A stretch of 64,000 nt of DNA, from the NCBI RefSeq assembly GCF_900105215.1, contig NZ_FOIP01000001.1:2416001-2480000 (forward strand), written 5' to 3'. The DNA comes from Lacrimispora sphenoides (GTDB lineage Bacteria; Bacillota; Clostridia; Lachnospirales; Lachnospiraceae). Position numbers and translations under genes: made by a program. Below the pieces are notes generated by a model. That model was not told the origin of the DNA, did no database searches, and saw nothing but the letters and a program-made list of their open reading frames with translations. Numbering within the stretch: position 1 is the first letter of the stretch; each line of letters opens with the position of its first letter. Positions 30,069 to 49,849 of the stretch are shown here, piece after piece.

Positions 30069-32141
30069 ATGAAGACTTTACTGAAAAATTCTGTAGTAGT
30101 ATTTGTAATTATGATCGTACTTCTATTGATTATTCCATTACCTCCGTTTTTTGTGGATGTAATGATTATAATAAATATTTCCCTTTCCATGATTATCTTA
30201 CTGATAACCATGAACATAAAAGAACCTTTGGAATTTTCTATTTTCCCAGCCCTGCTATTGGTGACCACTTTGTTGCGTCTTGGGCTGAATGTGTCTTCAA
30301 CGAGAAATATTTTGTCAAATCAGGGGTCTTCGGGTCAGGTGATCAAAGCCTTCGGTGATTTCGTATTACAGGGAAATGTTGTTGTCGGATTTATCATATT
30401 CCTTATTATCGTTCTGGTAAACTTCCTGGTTATTACAAAAGGAACGGAACGTGTATCGGAAGTTGCGGCCAGATTTACCTTAGACGCTATGCCTGGTAAG
30501 CAGATGGCCATTGACGCGGATTTAAGTTCTGGTTTAATCAATGAGCAGGAAGCAAAACTGAGACGGTATAAGGTTCAGAAAGAAGCAGATTTCTACGGAG
30601 CCATGGATGGTGCGACTAAGTTTGTTAAGGGAGATGCCATCATGTCCCTGATCACCACTGCCATTAACTTTATTGGCGGTGCCATTATCGGAATGGTGCA
30701 GTCAAATCTGGATTTTGGCCAGGTAATGTCTATTTATACCATTGCTACGGTCGGTGATGGACTTGTTTCCCAGGTTCCTGCCCTTTTGATTGCTACGGCC
30801 ACCGGTATGGTAGTAACCAGAGCAGTATCAGAAGGCAGTTTAAATGACGACGTATCAAGCCAGTTTATGGCCCAGCCAAGGGCTATTATGCTCACTGGTT
30901 TTGTCATGATCGTATTAATGCTGGTGCCTGGAATGCCTAAGATCCAGTTGGCAATCATGGCAGCGGTGCTTATTATAGCCGGTTATCGGTTAGGACATAA
31001 GGTTCGTCAGTCGGCCTCTAGTCTTCAGGAAATGGCGGCAGCCGCATCTATGCCTGAACAGGCGGCGCAGACGGCAGCCGATGAAGAGTCTTACTACCGG
31101 GATGTGAACAATGTTTATGCCCTTATTAACGTAGAACCTATTGAAATGGAATTTGGCTATAGTCTGATTCCGCTGATCGACGAGAGCAGCGGCGGGAAGA
31201 TGATCAACCGAATTGTTATTTTCAGAAGACAGTATGCTCAGGATATGGGACTTGTTATCCCTTCTGTCAGGCTCAGAGATAGTTCCAGTTTAAATACCAA
31301 TCAGTATGTCATAAAGATCAGGGGCGAAGAAGTATCCAGGGGAGAGATTCTGGTAGATTATTATCTGGCATTGGAACCACCTGCTGTTTCCGGTGAAGTA
31401 GATGGAATAGAAACGGTGGAGCCGGCTTATGGAATTCCCAGTAAATGGATCAGACCTGAAAATAAGGAAATGGCTGAAATTTATGGCTATACCGTAATTG
31501 ATCCACTTTCTGTTATGCTGACTCATTTGTCTGAAACCATCAGACAGCACGCTTATGAGCTTTTAGGACGGCAGGAAGTAATGCAGTTACTGGATAATGT
31601 GAAGAAGCACTCTCCGGAGCTTGTGGACGAGCTGTTCCCAAGTCAGTTTACATATGGCGGTATTCAGAAAATCCTCATTAACCTTTTGAAGGAAGGGGTT
31701 CCAGTCAAAGACATGGAAACGATACTGGCAACGATAGCAGATTCTCTTCCGACCACCAGGGATATGGATGTGATTACAGAGAACATCAGAATTGCTCTAA
31801 AGAGGACCATAACCAGAATGTTCTGCGAAGGAGGACAGATGAAGGTAGTAACCCTGGATGCAGAGCTGGAGAAAAATATTATAGGCAGTATGGCAAAAGG
31901 AGAACAGGGCATCTATCTGGCCCTCAGCCCGGATGTGATGCAGTCTGTGATTGGACAAATGGGAGAACAGATGAAGAAGTTCACGGATCTGGAGCAGAAG
32001 CCGGTGATTCTTACAAGCCAGGTTGTAAGGCTCTATTTCTACCGATTGATCGAGCAGTTTTATCCCAATGCATATGTCCTTTCCTTTAATGAGATTGCAA
32101 ATAATATTCAGATTCAGGCAATCGGGAATATTACCCTTTGA
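30069..32141 (+). CDS. flhA: Flagellar export gate protein FlhA
   Basis: 690 residues. Eight membrane segments lie in the first 310 residues, with family stretches VTTLLRLGLNVSSTRNIL, RFTLDAMPGKQMAIDADL and GDGLVSQVPALLIATATGMV. The C-terminal cytosolic domain binds chaperone-substrate complexes and FliJ. Its TGA overlaps the upstream end of the sigma factor frame, so the two are coupled. flhF and flhG, which usually follow, are missing. Confidence 0.96.
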   Translation: MKTLLKNSVVVFVIMIVLLLIIPLPPFFVDVMIIINISLSMIILLITMNIKEPLEFSIFPALLLVTTLLRLGLNVSSTRNILSNQGSSGQVIKAFGDFVLQGNVVVGFIIFLIIVLVNFLVITKGTERVSEVAARFTLDAMPGKQMAIDADLSSGLINEQEAKLRRYKVQKEADFYGAMDGATKFVKGDAIMSLITTAINFIGGAIIGMVQSNLDFGQVMSIYTIATVGDGLVSQVPALLIATATGMVVTRAVSEGSLNDDVSSQFMAQPRAIMLTGFVMIVLMLVPGMPKIQLAIMAAVLIIAGYRLGHKVRQSASSLQEMAAAASMPEQAAQTAADEESYYRDVNNVYALINVEPIEMEFGYSLIPLIDESSGGKMINRIVIFRRQYAQDMGLVIPSVRLRDSSSLNTNQYVIKIRGEEVSRGEILVDYYLALEPPAVSGEVDGIETVEPAYGIPSKWIRPENKEMAEIYGYTVIDPLSVMLTHLSETIRQHAYELLGRQEVMQLLDNVKKHSPELVDELFPSQFTYGGIQKILINLLKEGVPVKDMETILATIADSLPTTRDMDVITENIRIALKRTITRMFCEGGQMKVVTLDAELEKNIIGSMAKGEQGIYLALSPDVMQSVIGQMGEQMKKFTDLEQKPVILTSQVVRLYFYRLIEQFYPNAYVLSFNEIANNIQIQAIGNITL

Positions 32142-32176
32142 CCGGATTTTGTTACAGAAAGGCAGTGTTAGTCGGA

Positions 32177-32950
32177 ATGGAACAGGATTTTAGCCAATAT
32201 ACCAATGAAGATTTATTAATTAAATACAAGCGAACAAAAGACATCAAGGTCAAGCATGAACTTGTGATGCGGTATATAAATATGGTCAGGAACATATCAC
32301 TCCAAATGCGAGACGTATATTTAAGCTTTGCACAGGTGGAGGATATTGTCAATGAAGGCGTATTAACGATAATGAACGGAATCGAAAAGTTTGATCCGGA
32401 ATTAAATGTAAAGTTTGAAACTTATATTTCCAAGCGGATTCGCGGAATGGTTATTGATATGGCCAGAAAGCAGGACTGGATTCCCAGAAGCGTAAGAAAA
32501 AATGCTAAGGTCATGGACAATGCGGTCGTAGAATTGTGTAACCGTCTGGGACGTTTTCCAACTTCAAAGGAAACAGCGGATTATATGGACGTCACCATGG
32601 AAAAATACCAGGAGACTCTAGGCAAGACAAATGTTTACAGCATCATTTCCCTGGACATGGTTCTGGAGGCAGGAAGTGAAGATAAAAAGTCAATGCAGCT
32701 TCCGTCTATGAACGAACATGATCAGCCAGAGAATCATTATCTCCAGAAGGAATTTAAAGAAACTTTGGTTTCCGCTATAAATGATTTAAAAGAAAATGAA
32801 CAAAAGGTTATCTCATTGTACTATATGGACGAATTAAATATGAGGGAGATTGCACAGATCATGAAAGTCAGTGAACCAAGGATCTCCCAGATTCATTCCA
32901 ATGCGCTTCAAAAGCTCAGAGTGAATCTGACTAATTTTATAAATGAGTAG
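32177..32950 (+). CDS. fliA: Flagellar sigma factor, FliA/SigD/WhiG type (sigma-28)
   Basis: 257 residues. Region 2 (YINMVRNISLQMRDVYLSFA, YISKRIRGMVIDMARKQDWI), region 3 and region 4 (LNMREIAQIMKVSEPRISQI) are all of the sigma-28 type. ATG 32177 is taken as the start, although its ribosome site (AAAGG at 32158) is far; the frame opens at a TTG (32138) that overlaps the flhA stop. It should be held inactive by FlgM (49842) until hook completion and then read promoters with a GCCGATAT-like -10, several of which occur in this window. Confidence 0.93.
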   Translation: MEQDFSQYTNEDLLIKYKRTKDIKVKHELVMRYINMVRNISLQMRDVYLSFAQVEDIVNEGVLTIMNGIEKFDPELNVKFETYISKRIRGMVIDMARKQDWIPRSVRKNAKVMDNAVVELCNRLGRFPTSKETADYMDVTMEKYQETLGKTNVYSIISLDMVLEAGSEDKKSMQLPSMNEHDQPENHYLQKEFKETLVSAINDLKENEQKVISLYYMDELNMREIAQIMKVSEPRISQIHSNALQKLRVNLTNFINE

Positions 32951-34593: not shown

Positions 34594-35220
34594 ATGAAGA
34601 TAACACGTTACGATGAAATGAGCGGATTAGGGCTGGACTTAATCCGGGAGATAGGCAGCATAGGCACAGGAAATTCAGCTACTGCACTGTCCTCCATGCT
34701 GGGAAAGACCGTGCGCATGACTCTTCCGGATGTACAGATTCTCGATTATAACGATGCCATTAAATTTTTGGGAGACCCGGAAGAAATTGTGGCGGCTATA
34801 TTGGTTAAGATGTCTGGAGAGATCAACGGACTAATGCTGTTTGTCCTGAAACTGGATTTTATCAACCAGGTCTTATCCAGTCTTATGCAGGAGGAAATTG
34901 AAGACTATTACCAGTTAAATGTTTTGGAAACCTCAGCACTTGAAGAGGTGGGAAATATTATCATATCTTCTTACGTCAATGCCATTTCCTCCCTCAGTGA
35001 CGTCTCCATTAGTTTGTCTGTTCCTGATACAGCGATAAATATGCTGGGCGGAATATTAAGCGTGCCAATGGTGGAGTTTGGCTATCAGACGGATAAAATG
35101 ATGATGATCAGCGGTCAGTTTATCATAGGGGGCAAGGTGCTCCATAGTGATCTTCTTATGATGCCGGAGATTCAATCATTGAACTTTTTAATGGAAAAGC
35201 TGGGGATAATCAATGGATAA
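34594..35220 (+). CDS. cheC: CheY-P phosphatase CheC
   Basis: 208 residues with the two CheC half-sites. The second (ALEEVGNIIISSYVNAIS) keeps the Glu-x2-Asn pair. In the first (IREIGSIGTGNSATALS) the Asn is Ser, so one site is probably weak. CheC hydrolyses CheY-P and, with CheD, tunes receptor adaptation. AAGGAGGG site; it overlaps cheD by 8 bases. Confidence 0.92.
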   Translation: MKITRYDEMSGLGLDLIREIGSIGTGNSATALSSMLGKTVRMTLPDVQILDYNDAIKFLGDPEEIVAAILVKMSGEINGLMLFVLKLDFINQVLSSLMQEEIEDYYQLNVLETSALEEVGNIIISSYVNAISSLSDVSISLSVPDTAINMLGGILSVPMVEFGYQTDKMMMISGQFIIGGKVLHSDLLMMPEIQSLNFLMEKLGIING

Positions 35221-35695
35221 AAATCTGACGGTTGGAATCGCAGACATGAAGTTTGCCAGGCAGGAGGGAATTTTAATTACTTATGCCCTTGGTTCCTGTA
35301 TTGGGATTAGTTTGTATGACCCAATGATTAAGCTGGGAGCTTTGGTACATATAATGCTTCCGGAGGTATTCGGTTCAGGTGATGGGAATATATTTAAGTA
35401 CGCAGATACCGGACTGGCTGAAACGCTGCGCAAGATAGAGATCATGGGAGCGAGAAAGCCCAGATTGATTGCTAAGATTGCCGGAGGAGCAAAGATGTTT
35501 GAATTACAGGGAAACAGTACTCTTGGTAATATCGGCGCCCGTAATATTATCAGCGTGAAACAGATTCTTCGCTCAGAGGGGATCCGTCTTGTGGCTGAGG
35601 ATGTGGGAGAAAACTACGCACGGACCATGACCTTTGATGTCAGTACGGGAGGAGTCAGAATAAGGACTTACGGTAGAGCGGAAATTGATTTGTAA
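35213..35695 (+). CDS. cheD: Chemoreceptor glutamine deamidase CheD
   Basis: 160 residues. The catalytic pair is Cys29 (YALGSCIGISLYD) and His46 (GALVHIMLP), with the later IAGGAKMFE and GGVRIRTYGRAEI elements. It deamidates receptor glutamines and is held by CheC, encoded just upstream with overlapping ends. Confidence 0.95.
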   Translation: MDKNLTVGIADMKFARQEGILITYALGSCIGISLYDPMIKLGALVHIMLPEVFGSGDGNIFKYADTGLAETLRKIEIMGARKPRLIAKIAGGAKMFELQGNSTLGNIGARNIISVKQILRSEGIRLVAEDVGENYARTMTFDVSTGGVRIRTYGRAEIDL

Positions 35696-35699
35696 ACAT

Positions 35700-35726
35700 T
35701 ATGAACCGGAGGAATTATGCCGATAT
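35700..35726 (+). promoter_or_regulatory. Candidate sigma-28 promoter before cheV
   Basis: A perfect GCCGATAT octamer at 35719-35726 lies in the 83-base cheD-cheV gap, 52 bases before the cheV start. At the 15-base spacing the -35 position reads TATG (35700-35703), a poor match to TAAA, so the -35 support is weak. It would give cheV and the HDOD gene a late-class promoter inside the operon. Confidence 0.5.
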
Positions 35727-35778
35727 TTTATTAGGCAGATGTTTTTGCCGGATTATATTGAGATAAAGGAGAAGAAGT

Positions 35779-36687
35779 ATGGCAGAAACAGAGATTTTGT
35801 TAGAGTCAGGTACCAATGAGATCGAAATAATGGAATTTACCATTTATGGTGAATTGTATGGCATCAACGTGGCAAAAGTACGTGAAATCATGATGTCAGA
35901 TAAAGTAAAGCCCATTCCTCATGCTCACGCTTCTGTGGAGGGAATATTCAAGCCCAGAGATATCCTTCTCACTGTAATTGACCTTCCCCACTATCTGACA
36001 GGAAGCAAAACAGAGCAGCAGCCGAAAGATTTATTCATTATTACTAACTTTAACAAGCTGCATATTGCGTTCCGAGTTCACAGCGTAGTGGGAATAAGCC
36101 GCATTTCATGGAAGGATATACAGAAGCCGGACAATACCATCAGCCGGGGGGAGGAAGGAGTGGCAACAGGCATTGCCCAGTGCGGGAAGGATTTGGTTAC
36201 AATCCTGGATTTCGAAAAAATCGTAGCGGAAATTGCCCCGGAAACAGGGATTCAGTTGAATGAGATTAACAAATTTGAAGACAGGGAAAAAAATGGAAGC
36301 CCCATTCTGATTGCAGAAGATTCCATATTGTTAACCAGGATGATAGAAGCTTCGCTTAGGAAGGCAGGCTACCATAACCTGACTTTTAAAAACAACGGAC
36401 AGGAAGCATGGGACTACTTAAATCAGATTCGGAATGATTCGGACTTTGCTAATAAAATAAGCCTGATTATTACAGATATCGAAATGCCGGAAATGGATGG
36501 TCACCATCTGACAAAGCTGGTGAAGGATGATAAAGCGTTACAGCACATTCCGATTGTTATTTTTTCATCAATGATCAATCAGGAATTAATGATCAAAGGA
36601 AAGAAGCTGGGCGCAGATGAGCAGTTGTCCAAACCGGAAATCGGACATCTGGTTGAAGTGATTGACCATTTGCTTCAAAGGAGGTAA
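35779..36687 (+). CDS. cheV: Chemotaxis coupling protein CheV (CheW-receiver fusion)
   Basis: 302 residues. The N-terminal CheW-like domain (IMEFTIYGELYGINVAKVRE, HASVEGIFKPRDILLTVIDL) is followed by a receiver domain from about residue 173 (ILIAEDSILLTRMIEASLRK) with phospho-site D233 (LIITDIEMPEMDGHH). It couples receptors to CheA and adapts when phosphorylated. AAAGGAG site. Confidence 0.93.
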   Translation: MAETEILLESGTNEIEIMEFTIYGELYGINVAKVREIMMSDKVKPIPHAHASVEGIFKPRDILLTVIDLPHYLTGSKTEQQPKDLFIITNFNKLHIAFRVHSVVGISRISWKDIQKPDNTISRGEEGVATGIAQCGKDLVTILDFEKIVAEIAPETGIQLNEINKFEDREKNGSPILIAEDSILLTRMIEASLRKAGYHNLTFKNNGQEAWDYLNQIRNDSDFANKISLIITDIEMPEMDGHHLTKLVKDDKALQHIPIVIFSSMINQELMIKGKKLGADEQLSKPEIGHLVEVIDHLLQRR

Positions 36688-36691
36688 AACA

Positions 36692-37972
36692 ATGGATAGA
36701 TATGTCACCCGGCAGCCTATTAAGGCACTTAAGGAGGACAGGATCATTGGCTACGAGGTGCTGTTTCAAAAGGATTATGACGCCCTCTATAATAGTACCG
36801 ATGTGGCGGCGGCAGATACCATAGCAGGTTTTCTTATGCAGAACACGGAAAGGATTTTCCAGGATAAACTTACGTTTGTAACATTTACTCCTTCTTTATT
36901 GTTCCGGAATATGCCGAAAATTTTTGATAAGGATAAATTAATTATTCAAATTGAAGATCATGTGATGATCCATCCCTTATCGCCCGCTATCATCAAAAGA
37001 TACCGCACGGAAGGTTATATATTTGCAATCAATGATTTCCAGTTTTCTCCCAAGTACTTTACCATGCTGGATTATGTTACCTACATTAAAGTGGATATCA
37101 GCAATAAGCACGAAGGAAGAGAACGGGTTTCCTTAAATAATCTTATCAACACCATGAAAGGCTTTGATAAGAAATGTATCGCAACCGGTGTTAATACCAA
37201 AGAGGATTATGAGCTTGCCATGGAAGTCGGCGCCGACTATGCGGAAGGCAGTTATGTCGCGGAAGCTATGGCAAAGAAAGTAAAACGGATGGAATTCCTG
37301 GAAGGGAACTTCTTCCAGCTTGTTGTGGAAGTATCGAAAGATGAACCGGATATTGAACAGATCGAAAAGGTTATAAGCCATGACGCGGCATTAAGTTACG
37401 CTCTACTTAAAATTGTAAATTCTGCTTATTTTGCTCTGCGCAGACGAGTGTCTTCCATTCGCCAGGCTCTGGTTACCATGGGGATCAGTCAGTTAAAGCA
37501 ATGGGTATACCTTTTAAGCTTTAACAATGATTTTGAAAGTGATGAGTCCCGTGAGGCCATGCTGAAGCTGTCCTTTCTTCGGGCTAATTACGCTATGGTC
37601 CTTTCTGACCATATCAAGGACCTGCCCATTATCCGATCAGAGGTTTATATGATGGGAATGTTCTCGACCTTGCAGTACATGATTGATGCGCCATTGGAAG
37701 AAATTCTTGAAGAAGTACCTGTGGCCCAGGAGATCAAGGATGCGCTGCTTAAGCAGGAAGGAATATGCGGATCGCTTTATAAACTCATTCTTAGCTATGA
37801 AAATGCAGACTGGAAAGCTGTAAAATCTCTATCAAATGAATTAGGTATCCCTTCTTCTCTTCTGGCACAAACCTACATGGATTGTGTAGAAACGGTAAAT
37901 GAGATATGGGAAGGGGTTGTAAGCAACGCAGACCGGGAAACAGAGAACATAATAAAAGAAGCCCACACCTAA
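36692..37972 (+). CDS. HDOD protein with degenerate EAL domain (YuxH type)
   Basis: 426 residues. The N-terminal part resembles EAL phosphodiesterases, but the EAL motif reads EVL (IIGYEVLFQ) and the DDF region reads NDF (FAINDFQFSP), so catalysis of c-di-GMP is unlikely. The C-terminal HDOD domain (VISHDAALSYALLKIVNSAY, VSSIRQALVTMGISQLKQWV) follows. Start 36692 is chosen because AAAGGAGG at 36677-36684 is ideally placed. Such proteins act as signalling adaptors; its place after cheV suggests a link to motility. Confidence 0.8.
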   Translation: MDRYVTRQPIKALKEDRIIGYEVLFQKDYDALYNSTDVAAADTIAGFLMQNTERIFQDKLTFVTFTPSLLFRNMPKIFDKDKLIIQIEDHVMIHPLSPAIIKRYRTEGYIFAINDFQFSPKYFTMLDYVTYIKVDISNKHEGRERVSLNNLINTMKGFDKKCIATGVNTKEDYELAMEVGADYAEGSYVAEAMAKKVKRMEFLEGNFFQLVVEVSKDEPDIEQIEKVISHDAALSYALLKIVNSAYFALRRRVSSIRQALVTMGISQLKQWVYLLSFNNDFESDESREAMLKLSFLRANYAMVLSDHIKDLPIIRSEVYMMGMFSTLQYMIDAPLEEILEEVPVAQEIKDALLKQEGICGSLYKLILSYENADWKAVKSLSNELGIPSSLLAQTYMDCVETVNEIWEGVVSNADRETENIIKEAHT

Positions 37973-37985
37973 TGGTGTGGGTTTT
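37962..37985. terminator. Bidirectional terminator closing the large flagellar operon
   Basis: An 8-bp GC-rich stem (CCCACACC/GGTGTGGG, 37962-37969 and 37974-37981) with a 4-base loop is followed by TTTTCTTTT. The left arm carries the end of the HDOD gene, and the opposing comFB-like gene ends within it, so it serves convergent transcripts. Confidence 0.8.
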
Positions 37986-38568
37986 CTTTTACAGCAGAAC
38001 AGGCTTTGGTCAATTCTACGACTACTTGCTGTGAAAATCGGGTGGAATAAAAGTTTAAAAGAGGAGAAGCGGTGGAATTATCTGCGACTATGTATTTGGG
38101 AGGCAGATGGGACAGTGCCAGGGCTGTGACATCTGCGGTGCATCGGTCACAGTTGCAAACATCGAATTTATCCATGTATTCTGATACCGCATTCTTTACG
38201 ATGTGTTCCATAACATTCAGATATTGAAATGATGGAATCGATATTTCCGGTGCATCGGGTTCTGTTTCCTGGACAAGGGAAGGAGTCTCCGGTTCAGGAG
38301 CATCTTCCATCCCTTCTGCTTCCTCTAACTGCTCCCTGATCAATTCTGCCACCGGGTCGGGGGCTGAAGAAGACATGTCTATAATGGAAATAGGAGTTGG
38401 AGGAGAAGGTGGCTGATTTGAATCCGTAAGTTCCCTGATTTTTTCCGTGGAATCAGAGGTTTGCCGGGCTGCAAGATTTTCTCTGGCAGCCTCTTCTTTA
38501 GAGGATTCAGCCTCTTCTCCTGCTAACAGATTCATTACATGAGCTGTTTTACTGCTTTTTCTGGCCAT
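37969..38568 (-). CDS. ComFB-domain protein
   Basis: 199 residues. Residues 1-115 are low-complexity (Glu, Ser, Pro). Residues about 117-195 are a ComFB domain: NVMEHIVKNAVSEYMDKFD, then the Cys cluster C138-C140-C143 (VCNCDRCTADV) and ALALSHLPPKYIV. In Bacillus comFB lies beside competence/flagellar genes, and recent work on the family points to cyclic di-nucleotide binding in some members; for this protein that is inference. It is co-transcribed with the parA-like gene 22 bases upstream. Confidence 0.8.
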   Translation of the reverse strand: MARKSSKTAHVMNLLAGEEAESSKEEAARENLAARQTSDSTEKIRELTDSNQPPSPPTPISIIDMSSSAPDPVAELIREQLEEAEGMEDAPEPETPSLVQETEPDAPEISIPSFQYLNVMEHIVKNAVSEYMDKFDVCNCDRCTADVTALALSHLPPKYIVADNSTASPLLNFYSTRFSQQVVVELTKACSAVKENPHH

Positions 38569-38590
38569 AATTAAAACTCCCTTCAGGTAA

Positions 38591-39364
38591 TTAATTTTTA
38601 CGTTGTTTAATCAATTCCAGAACCTCGGAAATCAATTCCTTGTAGTCCTGGGCCGGATTGGATCTTGGAGCATAATCCAGAAGATTTTCTCCCTGGGCAG
38701 GAGCTTCCGCTACGCAGACACTGGATCGAATATGGGTATTAAATACCGTAGAGTTGATCTGCAGTGCGATTTTCTGTGCCATTTCCTTTACTTCTTTGGA
38801 AAGGAGGGTTCTGGGATTATATTTGTTAAGCAATATTCCAAGGACCACCAGATCCGGATTGACGGAAGAGCGGACGGTGTTGATGGTATCTTTAATCTGG
38901 GAGACACCCAAAAGGCTTAGAATTTCCGGAACCATGGGGATGATCAGATAGTCAGCAGCCGCATAAGCATTTACAGTGAGAATATTTAATGCAGGGGGAG
39001 TATCGATAATTATGTAATCATAATATCCGGTTACAGTAGAGAGAATATTTTTAAGAATACATTCCCGTTGCTTTCCTGTAAACTCCAGTTCAGCTCCGCT
39101 TAACAGGATATTGGAGGCGATTACATCGCAGCGCTTTGTAGACTGGATGGCCTCCTGCAGGGAAGCGGTCCCTTTTAACACTTCGTAGATGGTTGCGCCG
39201 GATTCGATCTGCAGACCAAGGCTGAAGCCTAAGTTGCCCTGAGGGTCTAGATCCACCGCCAAAACTCTTTTATTATTCATGGCAAGACCGCAGGCAAGAG
39301 CACAGGAAGTGGTTGTTTTGCCTACGCCGCCTTTTTGATTTGTAATTGCAATGACTGTTGACAA
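38591..39364 (-). CDS. ParA/Soj-family ATPase
   Basis: 257 residues. Deviant Walker A KGGVGKTT (residues 11-18), Walker A-prime DLDPQGNLG (about 38-46) and Walker B YIIIDTPPAL are intact, as is the late NPRTLLSKE. The start is TTG 39364 with GGAGG upstream. No parB or parS follows. Family members position cargo such as plasmids, chemoreceptor arrays or flagella. The neighbouring ComFB gene and the flagellar setting, plus the lack of FlhG here, suggest a motility-related positioning role (inference). Confidence 0.85.
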   Translation of the reverse strand: MSTVIAITNQKGGVGKTTTSCALACGLAMNNKRVLAVDLDPQGNLGFSLGLQIESGATIYEVLKGTASLQEAIQSTKRCDVIASNILLSGAELEFTGKQRECILKNILSTVTGYYDYIIIDTPPALNILTVNAYAAADYLIIPMVPEILSLLGVSQIKDTINTVRSSVNPDLVVLGILLNKYNPRTLLSKEVKEMAQKIALQINSTVFNTHIRSSVCVAEAPAQGENLLDYAPRSNPAQDYKELISEVLELIKQRKN

Positions 39365-39428: not shown

Positions 39429-39507
39429 ATAAGTATAGTAAAAACAATAAAAAAGCTGTATTTTAGAGAATCATGAAGATATGTGTCGTTTAGAAAGGAG
39501 CTTCAAT

Positions 39508-41961
39508 ATGGCATCAGTATACAATAATGTGGCTAGTAATAGTTTATCTTCTTCTGTTCGTGGCTATGGCGGCCTTGCAAGCGGCTTAGACCGTGACAAT
39601 CTGATTAAAGGAATGACCGCCGCCACAAGAGCGAAGATTGCAAAGCAGGAAAAGAGCAAACAGACCCTGCTGTGGAAACAGGATGCTTACCGCTCCATCA
39701 GTTCCAAGCTGGTTGAGTTTTCAAGAAAATATACTTCCTATTCCTATTCAAGTACCAATCTTTCAAGTCCTGCTTTTTGGGCATCGAACAACGTTACGGC
39801 AATAGGGGCAAACAGCAAGTATGTACAGGTTTCAGGAAGTTCTTCTGTTGCAGATTCCATTTCCATTGTAGGAGTGAAACAGCTTGCCCAGAAAGCCTCT
39901 GTAATTTCCAGTGATAGGATTTCTGATGGAGCACTGGAAACTGGAATGATTGATTTAAATGAAAACAAAATGATGAGTACTCTGGAGGGGCAGTCTTTAA
40001 CCTTCCAGTATGGTAACAAAACTTTTTCTGTTTCTTTAAAAAGTGGTGTGGATAAGAATGGCGATCCATACGATTATTCCACTGAAGCCAGTACGGTAGA
40101 CGCTATCAATAGGTCTCTGAAAGAGGTTGCCATTGGGGACGGCAAGACTTTGGCAGATGTTTTGAAAGTAAGCGGTGAAGTAGATACTGCAACAAATTCT
40201 TTTAAACTGGATTTTAAGTCAATTGATCCTGATAAAAATGAAATCCGCCTCGCAGGAGGAAGTAAAGGAGCAATGGAAGCCCTTGGTATCAGTGACAGCA
40301 ATGTGTGGTCGCAGCTGGTAAAGGATGGTAAGACAGTGATTGGTGAGGCCGGAATGTCGGCAGAATTAAAGGGGATGGATCAAACTCTTTATAAAGATAA
40401 GTCCTTTGAAGAGCTGGTAAATGGGAAAAGCATGAGCTTTACTTATAATGGGGTTACGAAATCTATAGACCTTTCCAGCCAAAGCAGTATGAAGGAGCTA
40501 GCGGAAGACATCAAGACTAAACTGGAAAAAGAATTTGGAAAGGGACGGATTAATGTGACGGTAGTTCCGGATCCGAATGACCCGACGAATGCTAAAAAGG
40601 GAACGCTTAAGTTTGAAACAGTGAAGCCTGAAGGAGGGTCTGATGACTCCTCCAGTTTAATGATCGCCTATGGCGATGCAGAGGTAAGAGCAGCCTTACA
40701 AGTGGCAAACGGGGACTCAAACCGCCTGAATTTGGATGCAGCGATCGGAAAATCCGGCTTAAGCACTATTGATCCGGTACCGGGAGATTTAAATACTCCG
40801 CTGAAAATTGTAATCAATGGAGTAGATATTAATAAAGATGGAAGCCTTAATTATAAAAGTACCTTGAATCAAATCATGGAAAAAATCAACTCCTCCGATG
40901 CTGGCGTGACAATGAGCTATATGAGAGATGCTGACAAATTTTCCATCGTAGCGAAAGAAGACGGAGCATCGGGAGGAATTGAATTTGATCTTGCGGGTAC
41001 GGATAATGAAAAGCTGTTTGGAGCCATAGCAAAGCCCGTCACAAATCCTGATGCCAGCCAATCTGCTGCGAAGTATTCCGGTAAGGATGCCGTAGTATTA
41101 GTCAAATATGCCGGCTCATCGGATCCGGTCGAATTGACCAGAGGTAGTAACACCTTTGATCTGAATGGGTTAAATGTCACCGTAAGCGGAACCTTCAATG
41201 AGTCAGGAACGGGAGGGGCAGATCAGGCTGTCACCTTTAACGCTAAAACAGATTCCGATAAGATTACAAAAGCAGTTTCCGAGATGATTAAGGATTACAA
41301 TGATATCATCAAGCTGGTTAACGATCAGATTTCCACAAAACCAAACCGCAAATATGAACCATTGACTGATGAGCAGAAGGCGGAGATGTCGGAAAAACAG
41401 ATTGAGCAATGGGAAGAAAAGGCCAAGGAAGGCCTGTTGTTTAATGATCCTGACTTAAGAGGTCTGTCTGACAGTATGCGCTTTATCTTTGAAGGTGGCT
41501 CTGAAAAGAAAGCCCTTCTGGAGTCTTATGGAATTTCCACAAGCAATAAATACCAAGAGAACGGAGCTTTGGTATTTGACGAGGTAAAGTTCCGGGCAGC
41601 CCTTGAGAAGTCTGGAGAAGACTTACAGAAGCTGTTCACCGATGGTGCGGATACTCTTACTGGAGATAAGGGCGGCGTTATGACCCGTTTAACTGCAATT
41701 ACAGATAAATACGCTTCTGAAACAGGTGCCACAAAGGGTATCCTGATTGAAAAAGCAGGTTCCTCCTATGCTCCTGTCAGCATTCTCAACAATTATATCA
41801 AGAAGTCCGTGGACAGAATTGATGATTATATCGAGCGTCTCCAGTCTCAGCTTAAGTCGGAGACAGACCGCTATATTAAGCAGTTTACCTCTCTGGAAAC
41901 ATTGATTTCTCAAATGAACTCCCAAAGCAGCTGGCTGCAGAGTTCATTCGGCGGTCAATAA
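39508..41961 (+). CDS. fliD: Flagellar filament cap protein FliD (large variant)
   Basis: 817 residues. N-terminal FliD region (GGLASGLDRDNLIKGMTAAT) and C-terminal coiled-coil region (IDDYIERLQSQLKSETDRYI, FTSLETLISQMNSQSSWLQS) are clear. It caps the filament and folds flagellin. It is much longer than the common 450-550 residues; the extra sequence lies in the middle surface domains. ATG 39508 follows AAAGGAG (39494-39500); the frame upstream to 39481 is non-homologous. fliS follows. Confidence 0.93.
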   Translation: MASVYNNVASNSLSSSVRGYGGLASGLDRDNLIKGMTAATRAKIAKQEKSKQTLLWKQDAYRSISSKLVEFSRKYTSYSYSSTNLSSPAFWASNNVTAIGANSKYVQVSGSSSVADSISIVGVKQLAQKASVISSDRISDGALETGMIDLNENKMMSTLEGQSLTFQYGNKTFSVSLKSGVDKNGDPYDYSTEASTVDAINRSLKEVAIGDGKTLADVLKVSGEVDTATNSFKLDFKSIDPDKNEIRLAGGSKGAMEALGISDSNVWSQLVKDGKTVIGEAGMSAELKGMDQTLYKDKSFEELVNGKSMSFTYNGVTKSIDLSSQSSMKELAEDIKTKLEKEFGKGRINVTVVPDPNDPTNAKKGTLKFETVKPEGGSDDSSSLMIAYGDAEVRAALQVANGDSNRLNLDAAIGKSGLSTIDPVPGDLNTPLKIVINGVDINKDGSLNYKSTLNQIMEKINSSDAGVTMSYMRDADKFSIVAKEDGASGGIEFDLAGTDNEKLFGAIAKPVTNPDASQSAAKYSGKDAVVLVKYAGSSDPVELTRGSNTFDLNGLNVTVSGTFNESGTGGADQAVTFNAKTDSDKITKAVSEMIKDYNDIIKLVNDQISTKPNRKYEPLTDEQKAEMSEKQIEQWEEKAKEGLLFNDPDLRGLSDSMRFIFEGGSEKKALLESYGISTSNKYQENGALVFDEVKFRAALEKSGEDLQKLFTDGADTLTGDKGGVMTRLTAITDKYASETGATKGILIEKAGSSYAPVSILNNYIKKSVDRIDDYIERLQSQLKSETDRYIKQFTSLETLISQMNSQSSWLQSSFGGQ

Positions 41962-41979
41962 AGAATGGCGGTGTAGAAC

Positions 41980-42348
41980 ATGAATGCCTATGGTTATCAG
42001 AATTACAAAACGCAGGCGGTAAATACCATGACTCCTGGAGAGATGCTTGGTCTCCTGTATGATGAGTTATTAAAGCGTCTGACTAGAGCGGAGCTTGCCC
42101 TGGAGAAAAAGGATTATGTGCTTTTTGACCAATCCATGCAGCGTTCCGTTGAAATTGTTAATTATTTAAAAAATACTTTGAATCATAAATATGAAATAAG
42201 CTCCGAGCTGAAACGGTTGTATGATTTCTTTCTTTATGAGTTCAGCCGGATTAGCGCGGGAAGAAATCCAAAGGTGATTGAAGAAGTCAGACCCTTGATA
42301 GTAGAATTGAGAGATGCCTTCAAAGAAGCGCAGAAGTTAAGCAGTTAA
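41980..42348 (+). CDS. fliS: Flagellin chaperone FliS
   Basis: 122 residues, a four-helix bundle. It starts NAYGYQNYKTQAVNTMTPGE with LLGLLYDELLKRL-like helix content (MLGLLYDELLKRLTRAELAL). It binds flagellin in the cytoplasm and, in Firmicutes, also FliW-linked control. It follows fliD as usual. Confidence 0.94.
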   Translation: MNAYGYQNYKTQAVNTMTPGEMLGLLYDELLKRLTRAELALEKKDYVLFDQSMQRSVEIVNYLKNTLNHKYEISSELKRLYDFFLYEFSRISAGRNPKVIEEVRPLIVELRDAFKEAQKLSS

Positions 42349-42382: not shown

Positions 42383-42420
42383 TATTTAATATTCATTTAT
42401 GAGAATGAGGGAGGATGCAC

Positions 42421-42816
42421 ATGGAAGAATCCATTCTGTTTGAAATTCTTAAAGAGATGCAGAAAAAATATACGTTTATTGTCGAAATTGAGCGCATTAC
42501 CCGGGAGATGGGAGATGCCCTATCTCGAAATGACAGGGAATCGGTTCAACTACTATTGGGTATGCGCCAGGATGAAATGAACAAAGCAGATGTATGTACC
42601 AGGAACGTAGATTGCCTCGTATCCGCCCTATCACCGGAAGACGGCAGTCAGGTTAGAGAATGGCTTAACTGCGATGGAGGCAGGAATCCTGACAGTCCTA
42701 TTGCAGGGATGTTGGTGGAGAAGAGAAAGAGCATTCAGCTGGCGCTGAAACGGACCATTGAGGCGGATCGCTACATAAGCATGCGGTTATCAGGAAAGGA
42801 CTCTTTCTATCAATAA
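42421..42816 (+). CDS. FliT-like flagellar chaperone candidate
   Basis: 131 residues, predicted all-helical (ILFEILKEMQKKYTFIVEIE at the start), with no recognisable signature. Position directly after fliD-fliS is that of fliT in many Firmicutes, so a FliD chaperone role is inferred from context and fold type. ATG 42421 follows GAGGGAGG; ATG 42415 lies too close to that site. Confidence 0.5.
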   Translation: MEESILFEILKEMQKKYTFIVEIERITREMGDALSRNDRESVQLLLGMRQDEMNKADVCTRNVDCLVSALSPEDGSQVREWLNCDGGRNPDSPIAGMLVEKRKSIQLALKRTIEADRYISMRLSGKDSFYQ

Positions 42817-43738: not shown

Positions 43739-45025
43739 ATGAGTAAAGGATACGAAGAACGGTATTTAATAACACTGCTGTCATCTGTGATGAACCAGAA
43801 GGAATCGCCGGCACCGCTGAGGAATTTAAATTGGGATAAGATGTTTCGGCTTGCTGATTATCATCGTGTGGCTCATGTTGTATATTACGGAATTATGGGA
43901 TTAGATGAAGAGATACCTCAGTCTATCCGTCAGCGATTTTTTGGGAAATATTTAGAATCCGTTCATCGGGTTGAACGTTTGCGTTCAACAGAAAAGCAGG
44001 TACAAGCTCTTCTGGAAAGGAACGGGATTAACTGCTTTTTTTTAAACTATTCTGATTTTGTTAAATGCTATCCCATTGAAGAAATGTGCTGCAGGGAATT
44101 TATAGAGATTGGTACGGAAAAGAAGTATGCCCAGACTATCAGAACACTTCTCTGGGAAGCGGATTTTGAAGAGCGATATACAGAAATTCGAGGGGAGCTG
44201 TACTATCGAGTTCCAGGGAACAAAGTTTTGTGCTTCAACCAAACCATGTTTTTCAGCAGGTTAATGCAAAAGTTTTATATCAATCTACTTCATTCTTTGC
44301 CAAATAAAAAGAGTATGAATTATATTCGGGAGATGAATGCCAGTGAGATATATTTATTCCTCATGTGCAGGCTAACAGATTCTTATGCCAGAGGGGATAT
44401 TAGCTTAAGCCAGATTATTGATTTTTGGGTATTTTATAAAAACCAAGGGGAATTCTTTTCTTGGCCATATATTTACGAACGTTTAAAGGAGCTTAAAATA
44501 GAAGAATTTGCGGAACGTCTGGAATATCTCATCCTCCGCTGGTTTGGCACTGGGGCGGGAATTGAAAATGTGGAAATATATGATGCCATGGAATCCTACA
44601 TCTTCAGCAAAGGTACAGAAGGGCGTGAAATCAGTTCCCAGTTCCTGCCTTTGATCAAAACAGTTGCCGACTGTTATTCCAGAGACAGGAAAAGAGAAGA
44701 ACTCCTAAGGCTGGTAGCTTGGCTTTTTCCAGACCGAGAGTATATGGAGACTATATATCCTGCATTGGAGAACTTCAGCATACTTCTTCCCTATTTTTGG
44801 CTTATCCGTCTTGTAAGATATTTCGTAAGGATGATTGGAAGCAAAATTGGAGAGAAGTTCCGGATCTCGAAAAAGACAGTTTTTCTGCATATGTGGAAAA
44901 GATATCAGAAAGTAAATACGAAAGAAAAAATAGAAGCGGAAGAAGATACAAAAGAAGAAGATACAAAAGAAGAAGATACAAAAGAAGAAGATACAAAAGA
45001 AAAAACAGCGGAAATACCTAAATAA
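43739..45025 (+). CDS. Nucleotidyltransferase-fold family protein (NTP_transf_5-like)
   Basis: 428 residues. It resembles the nucleotidyltransferase family common in polysaccharide clusters: N-terminal helical part (LADYHRVAHVVYYGIMGLDE), a strand region LLERNGINCFFLNYSDFVK, then helices with SEIYLFLMCRLTDSYARGDI. The usual catalytic Asp pair (GxD...D) is not obvious: the corresponding segment reads CCREFIEIG, so activity is doubtful. The C-terminus is four EEDTK repeats plus KTAEIPK. AAAGGTGG site at 43723-43730. Probable sigma-28 control links it to motility. Confidence 0.6.
   Translation: MSKGYEERYLITLLSSVMNQKESPAPLRNLNWDKMFRLADYHRVAHVVYYGIMGLDEEIPQSIRQRFFGKYLESVHRVERLRSTEKQVQALLERNGINCFFLNYSDFVKCYPIEEMCCREFIEIGTEKKYAQTIRTLLWEADFEERYTEIRGELYYRVPGNKVLCFNQTMFFSRLMQKFYINLLHSLPNKKSMNYIREMNASEIYLFLMCRLTDSYARGDISLSQIIDFWVFYKNQGEFFSWPYIYERLKELKIEEFAERLEYLILRWFGTGAGIENVEIYDAMESYIFSKGTEGREISSQFLPLIKTVADCYSRDRKREELLRLVAWLFPDREYMETIYPALENFSILLPYFWLIRLVRYFVRMIGSKIGEKFRISKKTVFLHMWKRYQKVNTKEKIEAEEDTKEEDTKEEDTKEEDTKEKTAEIPK
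44939..44998 (+). repeat. Four exact tandem copies of a 15-base unit
   Basis: GAAGAAGATACAAAA occurs four times head to tail (44939-44998), encoding EEDTK repeats at the nucleotidyltransferase C-terminus. Because the unit is in frame, copy-number change would alter tail length without shifting the frame. Confidence 0.95.
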
Positions 45026-45049: not shown

Positions 45050-45279
45050 GACTGACTCATCAAGTCCTTGATTTTAGAAATAGAGTCTTCGTTTAGGCTG
45101 GAGGAAGCGGCCTCCTGATTAGCTGAGGCAGCCTCCAATAGCTCTGTTCGAAGAATTGAAATTTCTTTTGGTGCATCAATAGCTAACTTAACCCAATCAT
45201 TTCCAATTTCAACAATTGAAACAGTTATATTGTCACCAATTGTAAGGGACTGATTATTTTTTCTTTGAAGAATCAGCAT
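45028..45279 (-). CDS. csrA: Carbon storage/translation regulator CsrA
   Basis: 83 residues. MLILQRKNNQSLTIGDNITV and IEIGNDWVKLAIDAPKEI-type core (VEIGNDWVKLAIDAPKEISI) are CsrA. The tail of about 34 residues (Ser/Ala/Glu-rich) is longer than in most CsrA. In Firmicutes CsrA represses flagellin translation and FliW titrates it. It overlaps fliW by 26 bases. Its end lies in the shared terminator. Confidence 0.93.
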   Translation of the reverse strand: MLILQRKNNQSLTIGDNITVSIVEIGNDWVKLAIDAPKEISILRTELLEAASANQEAASSSLNEDSISKIKDLMSQSKNSGNT

Positions 45280-45727
45280 ACGACTCCCCCTTTTTTATAA
45301 AATCCTTAAGTGGATGACGGAAGCGGTAAAGAGGATTGTCCAAAATTACCTGTCTGCCTTCCCGGGTTTCCGTATTTACCGCAATAGGAGCCTTTAAGTT
45401 TACCGTACTGCTCTCCATTGGATCATGGATTACGCTGATAACATAATAAGAAATCTTATCCTCGCCGTCAGAAACTTTTAGAAGTTTTTGATCCTCTTGG
45501 GATAATTCCGGTTCGTATTTTTCATAAAACTGGAATGGATTCATAAGAATAAAGGAAACGCTTAAATCATCTATAGACTGCAGACAGATCAACGCATCGC
45601 TATTCTCCTGAAAGGCCAGAGGAACATAATTTTTCAAGTCGGCAAAACCAAACAATCCATCAGAAAAATGTATGAATTCTTTTTCTGAGCAAGAAATCTT
45701 GCCAAAATATTGTGTACTAATTTCCAT
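45254..45727 (-). CDS. fliW: CsrA antagonist FliW
   Basis: 157 residues. It contains ISCSEKEFIHFSDGLFGFAD, then ICLQSIDDLSVSFILMNPFQ and VNLKAPIAVNTETREGRQVI, all FliW hallmarks. FliW binds either flagellin or CsrA, linking secretion to flagellin translation. It precedes csrA with overlapping ends. Confidence 0.95.
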   Translation of the reverse strand: MEISTQYFGKISCSEKEFIHFSDGLFGFADLKNYVPLAFQENSDALICLQSIDDLSVSFILMNPFQFYEKYEPELSQEDQKLLKVSDGEDKISYYVISVIHDPMESSTVNLKAPIAVNTETREGRQVILDNPLYRFRHPLKDFIKKGESYADSSKKK

Positions 45728-45748
45728 AAATACCTCCAGAGTACAGGA

Positions 45749-46357
45749 TTAAGCGATAAGATCTACCGAAGTATGCTCGAATAAATCGGCTGCGCTAGGC
45801 GGAACATAAAGAGGCTTTCCAATATATTCAATATTCACATCAGGCATTTGGGTGATAGACAGCTCAACGTTTCCGGGTATAAATTCAAATTGTCCATTTG
45901 CTATTTTTATGTCAAAACTCATTCTATCCATTTCGTATTGCATAGAAAAGTCAGGTTCGGACCATTCAATATTAGGCCCTGTATTAGGAAGGAATTGTAA
46001 TCCGAATTCTCCTGTAGGCATTTGGGCACGCTGACTGAATATTAAGTCAAGGGGATTTGAGATGTTAGGGTCTAACAATATAGCACCTTCTTCTGCGTAT
46101 GCAGCAGTAGCCTCCATGGCGGCTGATTTACCCATGGCAGCAGATTGCCGCACACTTTCCATTGTAGTGGGACAGACTGAATTACGTGCATCGAACGTAT
46201 CCAGATACAATTTAGTAGGGCGGTTTTTTACAGTCAGGCCGCCCTTGTTTCTGTCGGTTATCAGGTCAGACTTAGAACTGGAATATTCCAATTTTGCTCT
46301 CTGAATTTTCAGTTCGTATTTAATCGGTATGGTCGTAATTCTAAGCAATGGTTCCAT
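45749..46357 (-). CDS. DUF6470 (YviE-like) flagellar operon protein
   Basis: 202 residues. It starts with PLLRITTIPIKYELKIQRAK and has a long helical middle, then a beta-rich end (VNIEYIGKPLYVPPSA). Bacillus subtilis yviE holds the same slot between flgL and fliW. Function unknown. No signal peptide. AGGTGTGATAT leader with GGAGGTGT ribosome site. Confidence 0.8.
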   Translation of the reverse strand: MEPLLRITTIPIKYELKIQRAKLEYSSSKSDLITDRNKGGLTVKNRPTKLYLDTFDARNSVCPTTMESVRQSAAMGKSAAMEATAAYAEEGAILLDPNISNPLDLIFSQRAQMPTGEFGLQFLPNTGPNIEWSEPDFSMQYEMDRMSFDIKIANGQFEFIPGNVELSITQMPDVNIEYIGKPLYVPPSAADLFEHTSVDLIA

Positions 46358-46378
46358 TATATCACACCTCCATCAACT

Positions 46379-47392
46379 TTACTTCATGAAATCAATAAAA
46401 GATGGAGATAAGATGCTTGTTCCTACCTTTAGGGCTGCATTGTATGCATACTGATTCCACATATAATCGGTAATAGCATCAGCAGGGTCTATTCCTTCCA
46501 CCTTTAACATTTGTTCCTGTAGAGAAATATCGTTATTTTCAAGACGGTCTTTTGTAGTAGTTAAAAACTCAGATTTAACACCCAGATTCGTGACTTCATT
46601 TAATACGTTGGTTCCTAAGTCTTTGAACTTGTTTGCAAGTTTTCCATAAGCGTCTGCATCAAAGTTACCTTCCTCCAGGGCATCAGCCAACTGGCCGGCT
46701 AAAACAATGACATTATTGCTCACACCAGCTGCATCTTGTCCGTATCCAATGGCCTTTATACCGGGAAGAGAAAGATTAAATGCGCTGGAAGGCACGACAC
46801 GGTCAGCTCCATCGAGAGAAAGCCCCAGCCCTAAATCAACATAAAGGGTTTCTTTGGACAAATTTGCAAGAGTTTTATAATCTTGACTTCCGGGTTCGGC
46901 ATTCACATCAATGCCCCGGTAAGTAAGGGTCTTTCCATCTTCAGAGAGCGTAAAGGGAGGATTCTTACCGTCTGCTCCGGCAAATAAAAATGTATCCTCA
47001 TAGGTGGAATTAAGGCTTAAGACCATGGATTTTTGAAACTGACGGATTGCAGTTGCAAAGGTTTGCCGCGTTTCCGGTGTCTGCTTGTCACCGCTCATAG
47101 CCTGTAGGCTATAATCAGAACTAATTGTTTTTATAGCATTAGATACCTGCATGAGCGCATCTTCCTGTCCATCCTGACGGGACTGAACGTCCGATAGTGT
47201 GTTCAAATTATCCAGATTCTTGTAGTATTTGCGGTGAAGCTGAGATGCACGGGCTGCAGATGCAGGGTTCTCCGAGACGCTGTTAAAGTTTCGTTGAGTC
47301 ATAACATGGTTTCTGGACGTATTTAAGTTAGCTATGGAAGCCGCAAGATTGCTTTTATAATTCCGTATAATCGCATTGGTTGAAATTCTCAT
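46379..47392 (-). CDS. flgL: Hook-filament junction protein FlgL
   Basis: 337 residues. Flagellin-like N-terminus (MRISTNAIIRNYKSNLAASI, then SENPASAARASQLHRKYYKN) and C-terminus (YMWNQYAYNAALKVGTSILS). It joins the filament to FlgK. It follows flgK with an 10-base gap and a GGAGG site. Confidence 0.94.
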   Translation of the reverse strand: MRISTNAIIRNYKSNLAASIANLNTSRNHVMTQRNFNSVSENPASAARASQLHRKYYKNLDNLNTLSDVQSRQDGQEDALMQVSNAIKTISSDYSLQAMSGDKQTPETRQTFATAIRQFQKSMVLSLNSTYEDTFLFAGADGKNPPFTLSEDGKTLTYRGIDVNAEPGSQDYKTLANLSKETLYVDLGLGLSLDGADRVVPSSAFNLSLPGIKAIGYGQDAAGVSNNVIVLAGQLADALEEGNFDADAYGKLANKFKDLGTNVLNEVTNLGVKSEFLTTTKDRLENNDISLQEQMLKVEGIDPADAITDYMWNQYAYNAALKVGTSILSPSFIDFMK

Positions 47393-47402
47393 TAGAAACC
47401 TC

Positions 47403-49424: not shown

Positions 49425-49849
49425 AATAATCCCTCCCATTTTGCATTGTCTGGAGCCATTTTCCCTTGGGAATTCTGAATGGCTTTGTTTATCATGTGAA
49501 GATTGATTTCTATCATGGTTCGTGCACCGTCACTTATTTCCTGAAACAGCCTGACCTGATTGGAAAGCCTGTCAAACAGTTCTTTCAGCTTATCACGTTC
49601 CTCGTCCTCTGAGACTTTTGAAAGTATCTGCTGGAAAGTATCACCCTTCATGCCAAGCTGTTCCTGGCAATCCTCACGCTTTTTATCAAGGCCTCTCAGC
49701 TTTAAAATGGCGGCCTGTTCTTTGTTCATGCAATCTTCCACATAAGTGACCCGATTTTTCTTAGCGGCTTCCAGTTTAACCTGTTCAACTTTAACCAGGT
49801 CTTCAAAAAGCTGGATCATATCCTCAATTACTGCGATAAAATTATTCAT
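49421..49849 (-). CDS. flgN: FlgK/FlgL export chaperone FlgN
   Basis: 142 residues, helical, starting MNNFIAVIEDMIQLFEDLVK, with a C-terminal helix IEINLHMINKAIQN. ATG 49849 follows AAAGGAG; the longer frame from 49900 runs through flgM. Placement between flgM and flgK is canonical. It overlaps flgM by 8 bases and flgK by 4. Confidence 0.88.
   Translation of the reverse strand: MNNFIAVIEDMIQLFEDLVKVEQVKLEAAKKNRVTYVEDCMNKEQAAILKLRGLDKKREDCQEQLGMKGDTFQQILSKVSEDEERDKLKELFDRLSNQVRLFQEISDGARTMIEINLHMINKAIQNSQGKMAPDNAKWEGLL

Follow-up and report, generated by a model that had tools for sequence, protein, structure and literature searches.

How flagella are placed and counted in Lachnospiraceae whose flagellar gene cluster lacks FlhF is the question raised by a locus of Lacrimispora sphenoides, situated within the 64,000-nucleotide stretch of contig NZ_FOIP01000001.1 (positions 2,416,001 to 2,480,000 of the forward strand) that was analyzed herein and is referred to as the window. 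The locus encodes a ParA/Soj-type ATPase together with a ComFB-domain protein. We consider it probable, at roughly 55%, that the pair constitutes the ParA-type positioning module of one flagellar-cluster lineage and would perform there the spatial or numerical job that FlhF-FlhG performs in the other, with the ComFB-domain protein presumably acting as adaptor and activator of the ATPase, possibly gated by a cyclic dinucleotide. The first-pass annotation of the window, which had read the pair as a positioning device under small-molecule control, is thus partly supported. As far as sequences can tell, the conserved pairing, its location, the intact ATPase motifs, the three-part adaptor, and the joint absence of ParA and the N-terminal peptide of the adaptor in certain relatives are plain.

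As listed in Table 1, both genes lie on the minus strand, parA upstream and 22 nt apart from comFB, and ribosome-binding-like sites precede each of them (GGAGG ahead of the TTG start of parA, AAGGGAG ahead of the ATG start of comFB); the spacing suggests their co-transcription. Both open reading frames and their domain matches were found where the first-pass annotation had set a ParA paired with a ComFB-domain protein, and its placement of the pair between the main flagellar operon and fliD was likewise borne out. The pair is flanked by cheC, cheD, cheV and an EAL-HDOD gene on one side and by fliD-fliS on the other, within a flagellar cluster comprising fliE to flhA-fliA plus two flgEFG-type rod genes upstream, and fliW, DUF6470, a flagellin-N protein gene and flgK downstream.

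The ATPase carries the motifs by which ParA/MinD ATPases are recognized in sequence, namely a deviant Walker A with the signature lysine, a Walker A', and a Walker B. The signature-lysine Walker A was invariant in 10 aligned relatives, as were D38, D40, and D122-TPP (numbering of L121). The nearest solved chains were of the Soj type (8ray, 156 bits), and the ATPase scored 178 bits against the Soj of its own genome, compared with 68 bits against the genome's own MinD and 30-43 bits against 19 FlhG-like frames from members of the family; an FlhG-type ATPase was therefore rejected. The flagellar ParAs clustered separately from four Soj rows (support 87/98), their cluster including one long-branch ParA. 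In the host genome (5.93 Mb in two contigs, 99.99% complete), a profile search gave 11 AAA_31 matches. The other AAA_31 genes, identified from their translations and neighbors with no profile run, were a Soj beside ParB, a second ParA-ParB pair, MinD in minCDE, a TIR-ParA, ArsA (two matches), three NifH-like proteins, and Mrp, and no FlhG was read among them. A ParB-type partner was also rejected, as the partner matched PF10719 only and gave no ParB match. The description of a ParA without ParB accordingly holds at the locus but not for the genome, where the two ParA-ParB pairs reside elsewhere.

The ComFB-domain protein is built of three parts, a basic N-terminal peptide (charge about +2.4), an acidic linker (charge -19) with a conserved helix, and the ComFB domain. 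The domain was the single ComFB match in the host genome and the only Pfam family matched by the protein; it scored over the curated cut-off of the profile and matched the fold of CdgR, a receptor of cyclic di-GMP (c-di-GMP). In the structural model, helices were placed at residues 7-15 of the peptide, with a predicted local distance difference test score (pLDDT) of about 60, and at residues 72-85 of the linker (pLDDT about 50-75). The C-x-C-x2-C cluster seen by the first-pass annotation reads C138-N-C140-D-R-C143, and its three Cys residues were invariant in 16 aligned sequences (the window and 15 relatives), as was P197-x-H199 at the C-terminus in the alignment. These Cys residues aligned with the zinc ligands C25, C27, and C30 of Bacillus subtilis ComFB, and no counterpart of its fourth ligand, C88, was seen in the alignment of the window protein, so that three of four Cys ligands are kept. 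Four of the five named dimer residues of B. subtilis ComFB are also kept (N4, E7, D33, and Y46 correspond to N118, E121, D146, and Y159), and N40 is replaced by S153. CdgR (8hja) itself has no Cys cluster in the alignment. A ComFB of the competence-operon type was rejected on the basis of the score (40.8 bits versus a cut-off of 120 bits for the NCBIfam equivalog) and of the identified neighbors, which are flagellar or chemotaxis genes. Cyanobacterial ComFB members are reported to bind c-di-GMP and cyclic di-AMP (c-di-AMP) (PMC12313861), and deletion of comFB in B. subtilis to have no effect on DNA uptake (PMC4381287).

In the usual flagellar gene order, flhF-flhG is expected after flhA and before fliA. 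In the window, flhA runs directly into fliA, with neither gene in that place, an absence that the first-pass annotation had remarked, and the alignment gap between the two genes amounted to -7 to 209 nt in all 57 relatives with both genes in view. By contrast, 20 FlhF genomes held 2.8 to 3.8 kb between flhA and a gene that we take to be cheB-like, with the FlhF match inside that stretch right after flhA and an FlhG-like ATPase frame in 19 of these loci (none was found in G047 by frame search). Nor do flhF and flhG appear to lie elsewhere, a check that the first-pass annotation had proposed: FlhF gave no match over the cut-off in the whole host genome, where the two best matches were read as FtsY and Ffh, and no AAA_31 gene reads as FlhG. 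Among pair genomes, a search by locus likewise gave no FlhF over the cut-off in any of 19 (two Anaerotignum genomes and Proteocatella among them), and the same held for all 19 flagellar-ComFB genomes of a family sample. This sample comprised 200 genomes compared for ComFB, FliD, and FlhF, to which the host genome adds one. Among its 103 FliD-bearing genomes, 82 had FlhF (counting G103 at 170.5 bits, just under the cut-off), 19 had a flagellar-cluster ComFB, adjoining ParA in 18 of them, none had both, and two had neither (G149, and G199, which is 70% complete); the FliD match of G037 was weak, and seven genomes with FlhF and without a FliD match fall outside the 103. G149 (L225) has a flagellar cluster, yet its genome was negative for FlhF (at the cut-off), for ComFB, and for CheW-domain matches. 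A further 15 ComFB genomes carried both FlhF and FliD and, in the 1.9-3.2 kb of sequence examined with the ComFB gene, showed neither a ParA nor a FliD match.

When genomes from 84,980 species were scanned with no criterion other than the pattern of the N-terminal peptide, 177 matches were obtained, 151 of them encoding relatives, of which 80 were kept; M1, K7, T8, and H10 are thus fixed by selection in these 80, and the sample without peptide-selection bias is that of the family genomes found through the ComFB domain. The adjacency of parA and comFB near flagellar genes, which the first-pass annotation proposed to survey, recurred in this set: parA lay directly upstream on the same strand in 80/80 (the two genes overlapping in 17, being 0-30 nt apart in 58, and farther apart in five), flagellar or chemotaxis genes were found in the flank of 78/80, and FliD in 72/80. 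The exceptions to such a flank were L095, near a contig end, and L119, on a 4.6-kb contig. The position beside fliD was kept in both orientations of the pair, colinear and inverted relative to fliD, that occur among these genomes. Carriers of the pair include Lacrimispora, Dorea, Enterocloster, Eisenbergiella, Muricomes, C. symbiosum, Anaerotignum, and Proteocatella (Filifactoraceae), and the nearest named relative is L. celerecrescens, with identities of 98% for ParA and 90% for the ComFB protein. L123 and L124 show a second ComFB-like match beyond the pair, on the opposite strand.

In the domain-selected family samples, the N-terminal peptide was present in 31 of the 31 flagellar ComFB proteins of the window's type (type 1, window included) that accompany ParA, and in none of the three that do not (G162, G286, and G312), which kept the ComFB domain and, by eye, the linker motif. 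In these counts, the regular expression for the peptide was corrected by eye, since it missed G318 and G390 (GTG start); G361, called ParA-less by the regular-expression step, was counted by eye with ParA because its ParA is cut by a contig end; and no ComFB match was obtained for G352, nor for G046 and G148 (both type 2). Receiver-ComFB fusions and solo ComFBs lie outside the 31 and the three; 22 of 33 further ComFB genomes were examined, and the other 11 (frames of 94-125 aa) were assumed to hold solo ComFBs. No ParA of the window kind was found elsewhere in G162, G286, and G312, where the best full matches showed 42%, 38%, and 43% identity, comparable to second-best matches of 41-45% in four controls outside the host's genus; G286 also gave a 45-residue fragment at 62% identity. 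The joint absence of ParA and peptide is suggestive, though not proof, that the peptide serves ParA. A second pair type (G015, G046, G148, and G380; loci L060, L061, L062, and L197), situated near flgK in another flagellar cluster, has a related ParA and a different conserved basic N-terminus, EIDKEMMYRKIMPSA-like. The fusions (L063, L064, and L202 in G080, G188, and G305) appear by eye to be response regulators with ComFB as output domain; no ParA match stands beside them, and G080 and G188 are among the 15 genomes with FlhF and FliD mentioned above.

The mutual exclusion of FlhF and flagellar ComFB was set on two trees. The RpoB-fragment tree (46 rows) requires eight changes of these states, and a constraint uniting the 23 FlhF rows was rejected (approximately unbiased test, p 4e-7). 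It should be borne in mind that this tree is drawn from one gene and has long branches and several open forks; its change count excludes G149, G193 gave no match, and G199 was not used. On the FlhA tree (44 rows, without type-2 clusters and with G144 long-branched), the same states need a single change, on a very long branch; 27 ComFB-type loci entered this step, G057, G178, G300, and G371 being dropped for too little FlhA. There are thus two deep flagellar-cluster lineages, one with flhF and the other with parA-comFB, each of which seems to have been passed on as one unit and spread over various hosts, and the pair marks one of them in Lachnospiraceae, Anaerotignum, and Proteocatella. A reported difference in flagellar systems between the related species C. 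bolteae and C. clostridioforme is in line with an exchange of clusters (PMC5073890). The contrast of one to eight changes indicates that the exclusion reflects linkage to the cluster; it is still striking that one lineage has parA-comFB where the other has FlhF-FlhG.

On the proposed mechanism, ParA-ATP would dimerize and bind a surface, most likely the nucleoid since the ATPase is Soj-like. The ComFB protein, a putative dimer through its C-terminal domain, would contact ParA with its basic N-terminal peptide and stimulate ATP hydrolysis, by analogy with the role proposed for the partners of other ParA/MinD ATPases. Such partners are shown or suggested to contact the ATPase via a disordered N-terminus of positive charge, with the remainder of the protein holding the cargo (PMC10241942), the same layout as that of the ComFB protein. 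The cargo may be held by the conserved helix of the acidic linker or by the ComFB domain, and would most likely be the flagellar basal body or export complex, otherwise the chemosensory array. A ComFB domain occupied by c-di-GMP or c-di-AMP would then alter the engagement of cargo or ParA, coupling flagellum number or placement to the level of the second messenger.

Several observations weigh against this proposal. Gene order does not separate the flagellum from the chemosensory array as cargo, and since G286 and G312 group as sisters in the FlhA tree, the three ParA-less cases amount to two events only, in each of which one deletion could have taken both ParA and the peptide because parA adjoins the 5' end of comFB. 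The persistence of ComFB without ParA implies that part of its job is ParA-independent. comFB also stands beside flagellar genes in B. subtilis, so that its flagellar linkage may predate ParA and would not in itself be evidence for positioning. The exclusion of FlhF and ComFB is one event on the FlhA tree. A single-chain model of ParA plus the ComFB protein left the peptide at low confidence (pLDDT <50 over 258-322) and hence lends no support to docking. The exclusion of FlhF and ComFB would also be expected if the pair were a mere passenger of the cluster, for example an old DNA-partition remnant, as the single state change can be explained by linkage alone; we regard this as very improbable, given that, over the depth that separates Proteocatella and Lacrimispora, the pair has stayed in its cluster despite inversions and its peptide and motifs are conserved.

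As for the cargo, a chemosensory array, held by a Gram-positive analog of ParC-ParP or PpfA-TlpT in which the ComFB protein would link ParA to CheV, CheW, or receptors, is a rather unlikely candidate. cheC, cheD, and cheV are frequent neighbors of the pair, and known ParA-type systems are reported to position such arrays (PMC5706961). CheW-domain matches occurred in 42 of the 45 genomes searched, with at least three in each of the 15 type-1 pair genomes, and none occurred in G162 (no ParA), G149 (no pair), and G015, which keeps its type-2 pair and so speaks against the array. G286 and G312, which neither the CheW-domain nor the FlhF survey took in, lack ParA and yet retain cheV and cheD, and the ComFB protein has no CheW-like or methyl-accepting chemotaxis protein (MCP) match. 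As an indicator of cargo, chemotaxis loss therefore points both ways, and the data do not divide basal body from chemosensory array. Alternatively, a ParA-ComFB complex controlled by a second messenger might act on flagellar expression, export, or assembly with no spatial work. This would agree with the retention of ComFB in the three ParA-less genomes, with the modulation of cell size by CdgR through the transcription factor DevH (PMC13075795), and with the altered levels of pilus and taxis proteins upon loss of ComFB in Synechocystis (PMC12313861). The invariance of the ATPase motifs, including the signature lysine, in the 10 aligned relatives and the occurrence of the basic peptide only alongside ParA, as befits an ATPase activator, make it improbable. 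A positioning module of this flagellar-cluster lineage is the reading that we prefer, and by its inferred function the pair would be classed among the ParA/MinD positioning systems.

Within that class, the pair resembles FlhF-FlhG, the system of the family's other flagellar lineage, in being encoded in flagellar clusters and in having an ATPase of the ParA/MinD superfamily; it differs in that it has no FlhF GTPase, its ATPase is Soj-like, and its partner is a ComFB protein. With Soj/ParA-ParB-parS it shares the ATPase subfamily and a partner whose N-terminal peptide is basic, as is that of ParB, whereas the window partner has no ParB match and the genome has a separate Soj-ParB pair. ParC-ParP and PpfA-TlpT are similar in that a chromosomal ParA homolog is tied to motility genes and the ParA-contact region of the partner is N-terminal (PMC5706961), which here would be the proposed peptide, but the window partner matches no CheW-like or receptor family. 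Finally, ComFB and CdgR (PF10719; 4wai, 8hja) have the same domain and fold and, in the alignment with B. subtilis ComFB, most of the dimer residues; the window protein adds the peptide and the acidic linker, and its gene has parA as its partner instead of comFA/comFC or hfq. In B. subtilis, comFB is reported to lie in one operon with flgM, flgK, flgL, yviE, fliW, and csrA, which starts comFA-comFB-comFC (PMC8849057), and its place beside late flagellar genes may be ancestral. fliW, DUF6470, a flgL-like gene, and flgK of the window (45254-49439) resemble the flgK-flgL-yviE-fliW order of that operon (PMC8849057). In agreement with the first-pass annotation, no description of a ParA-ComFB pair was found in the open literature, subscription journals and preprints being mostly outside the search, and neither such a pair nor a flagellar role of ComFB occurs in the excerpts of PMC12955456, PMC7317962, PMC8849057, and PMC5101192. 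Likewise, no direct link from a cyclic dinucleotide to ParA positioning was found described in the open literature.

Table 1. Features of the parA-comFB locus and its surroundings (positions in the window)
Feature	Position	Strand	Evidence
parA, ParA/Soj-type ATPase, 257 aa, TTG start	38591..39364	-	Pfam AAA_31, E 2.3e-55
Deviant Walker A with signature lysine, NQKGGVGKTT, residues 9-18	39311..39340	-	Letters read in the window
ComFB-domain protein gene (proposed adaptor), 199 aa	37969..38568	-	PF10719, E 2.4e-19
Conserved basic N-terminal peptide MARKSSKTAHVMNLLA, proposed ParA-docking peptide	38521..38568	-	
Conserved linker motif, residues 60-85, proposed cargo-binding element	38314..38391	-	
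ComFB domain, residues 118-197	37978..38217	-	
CxCxxC cluster C138/C140/C143, predicted zinc site	38140..38157	-	
Hairpin between convergent comFB and EAL-HDOD genes, possible shared terminator	37962..37981	.	8-bp stem
EAL-HDOD protein, frequent neighbor	36692..37972	+	HDOD 1.6e-19; EAL 2e-13, profile positions 114-235
cheC, cheD, cheV, frequent neighbors	34594..36687	+	
fliD and fliS, frequent neighbors	39481..42348	+	fliD: PF02465 match; fliS: position only
flhA-fliA junction without flhF/flhG (flhA 30069-32141, fliA 32138-32950)	30069..32950	+	

The hairpin is T-rich on both sides, and its tail on the minus strand is CTTCTTTTAT. As the scan gave about as many sites as shuffled sequences did (terminator-like, 2 versus 1.6; promoter-like, 5 versus 3.4), we claim no promoter and regard the terminator as tentative. 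The EAL match of the EAL-HDOD protein covers only the C-terminal half of the profile, and this protein may thus be catalytically dead. Beyond fliS, a 133-aa protein with no Pfam match (42415-42816), perhaps a FliT-like chaperone, recurs in relatives, as does a nucleotidyltransferase-like protein (43739-45025; PF14907) as a neighbor of fliD-fliS.

Many Lachnospiraceae, including the gut genera Dorea, Enterocloster, and Eisenbergiella, carry a flagellar cluster without FlhF, and the pair makes the question of what places their flagella testable, for which the natural joint loss of ParA and the adaptor tail offers a ready test of the role of each part. Should the ComFB domain gate the ATPase, a cyclic dinucleotide would be linked directly to a ParA-type positioning engine. 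More tentatively, and as a possibility to which we give less than even odds, the protein may represent a new class of ParA adaptor, in which a cyclic-dinucleotide-sensing ComFB dimer with a zinc site and a ParA-activating tail would set flagellum number or placement in a lineage devoid of FlhF-FlhG, the second messenger directly tuning the ParA engine; considering that B. subtilis likewise has flagellar genes next to comFB, the protein might be an old flagellar regulator misnamed after competence.

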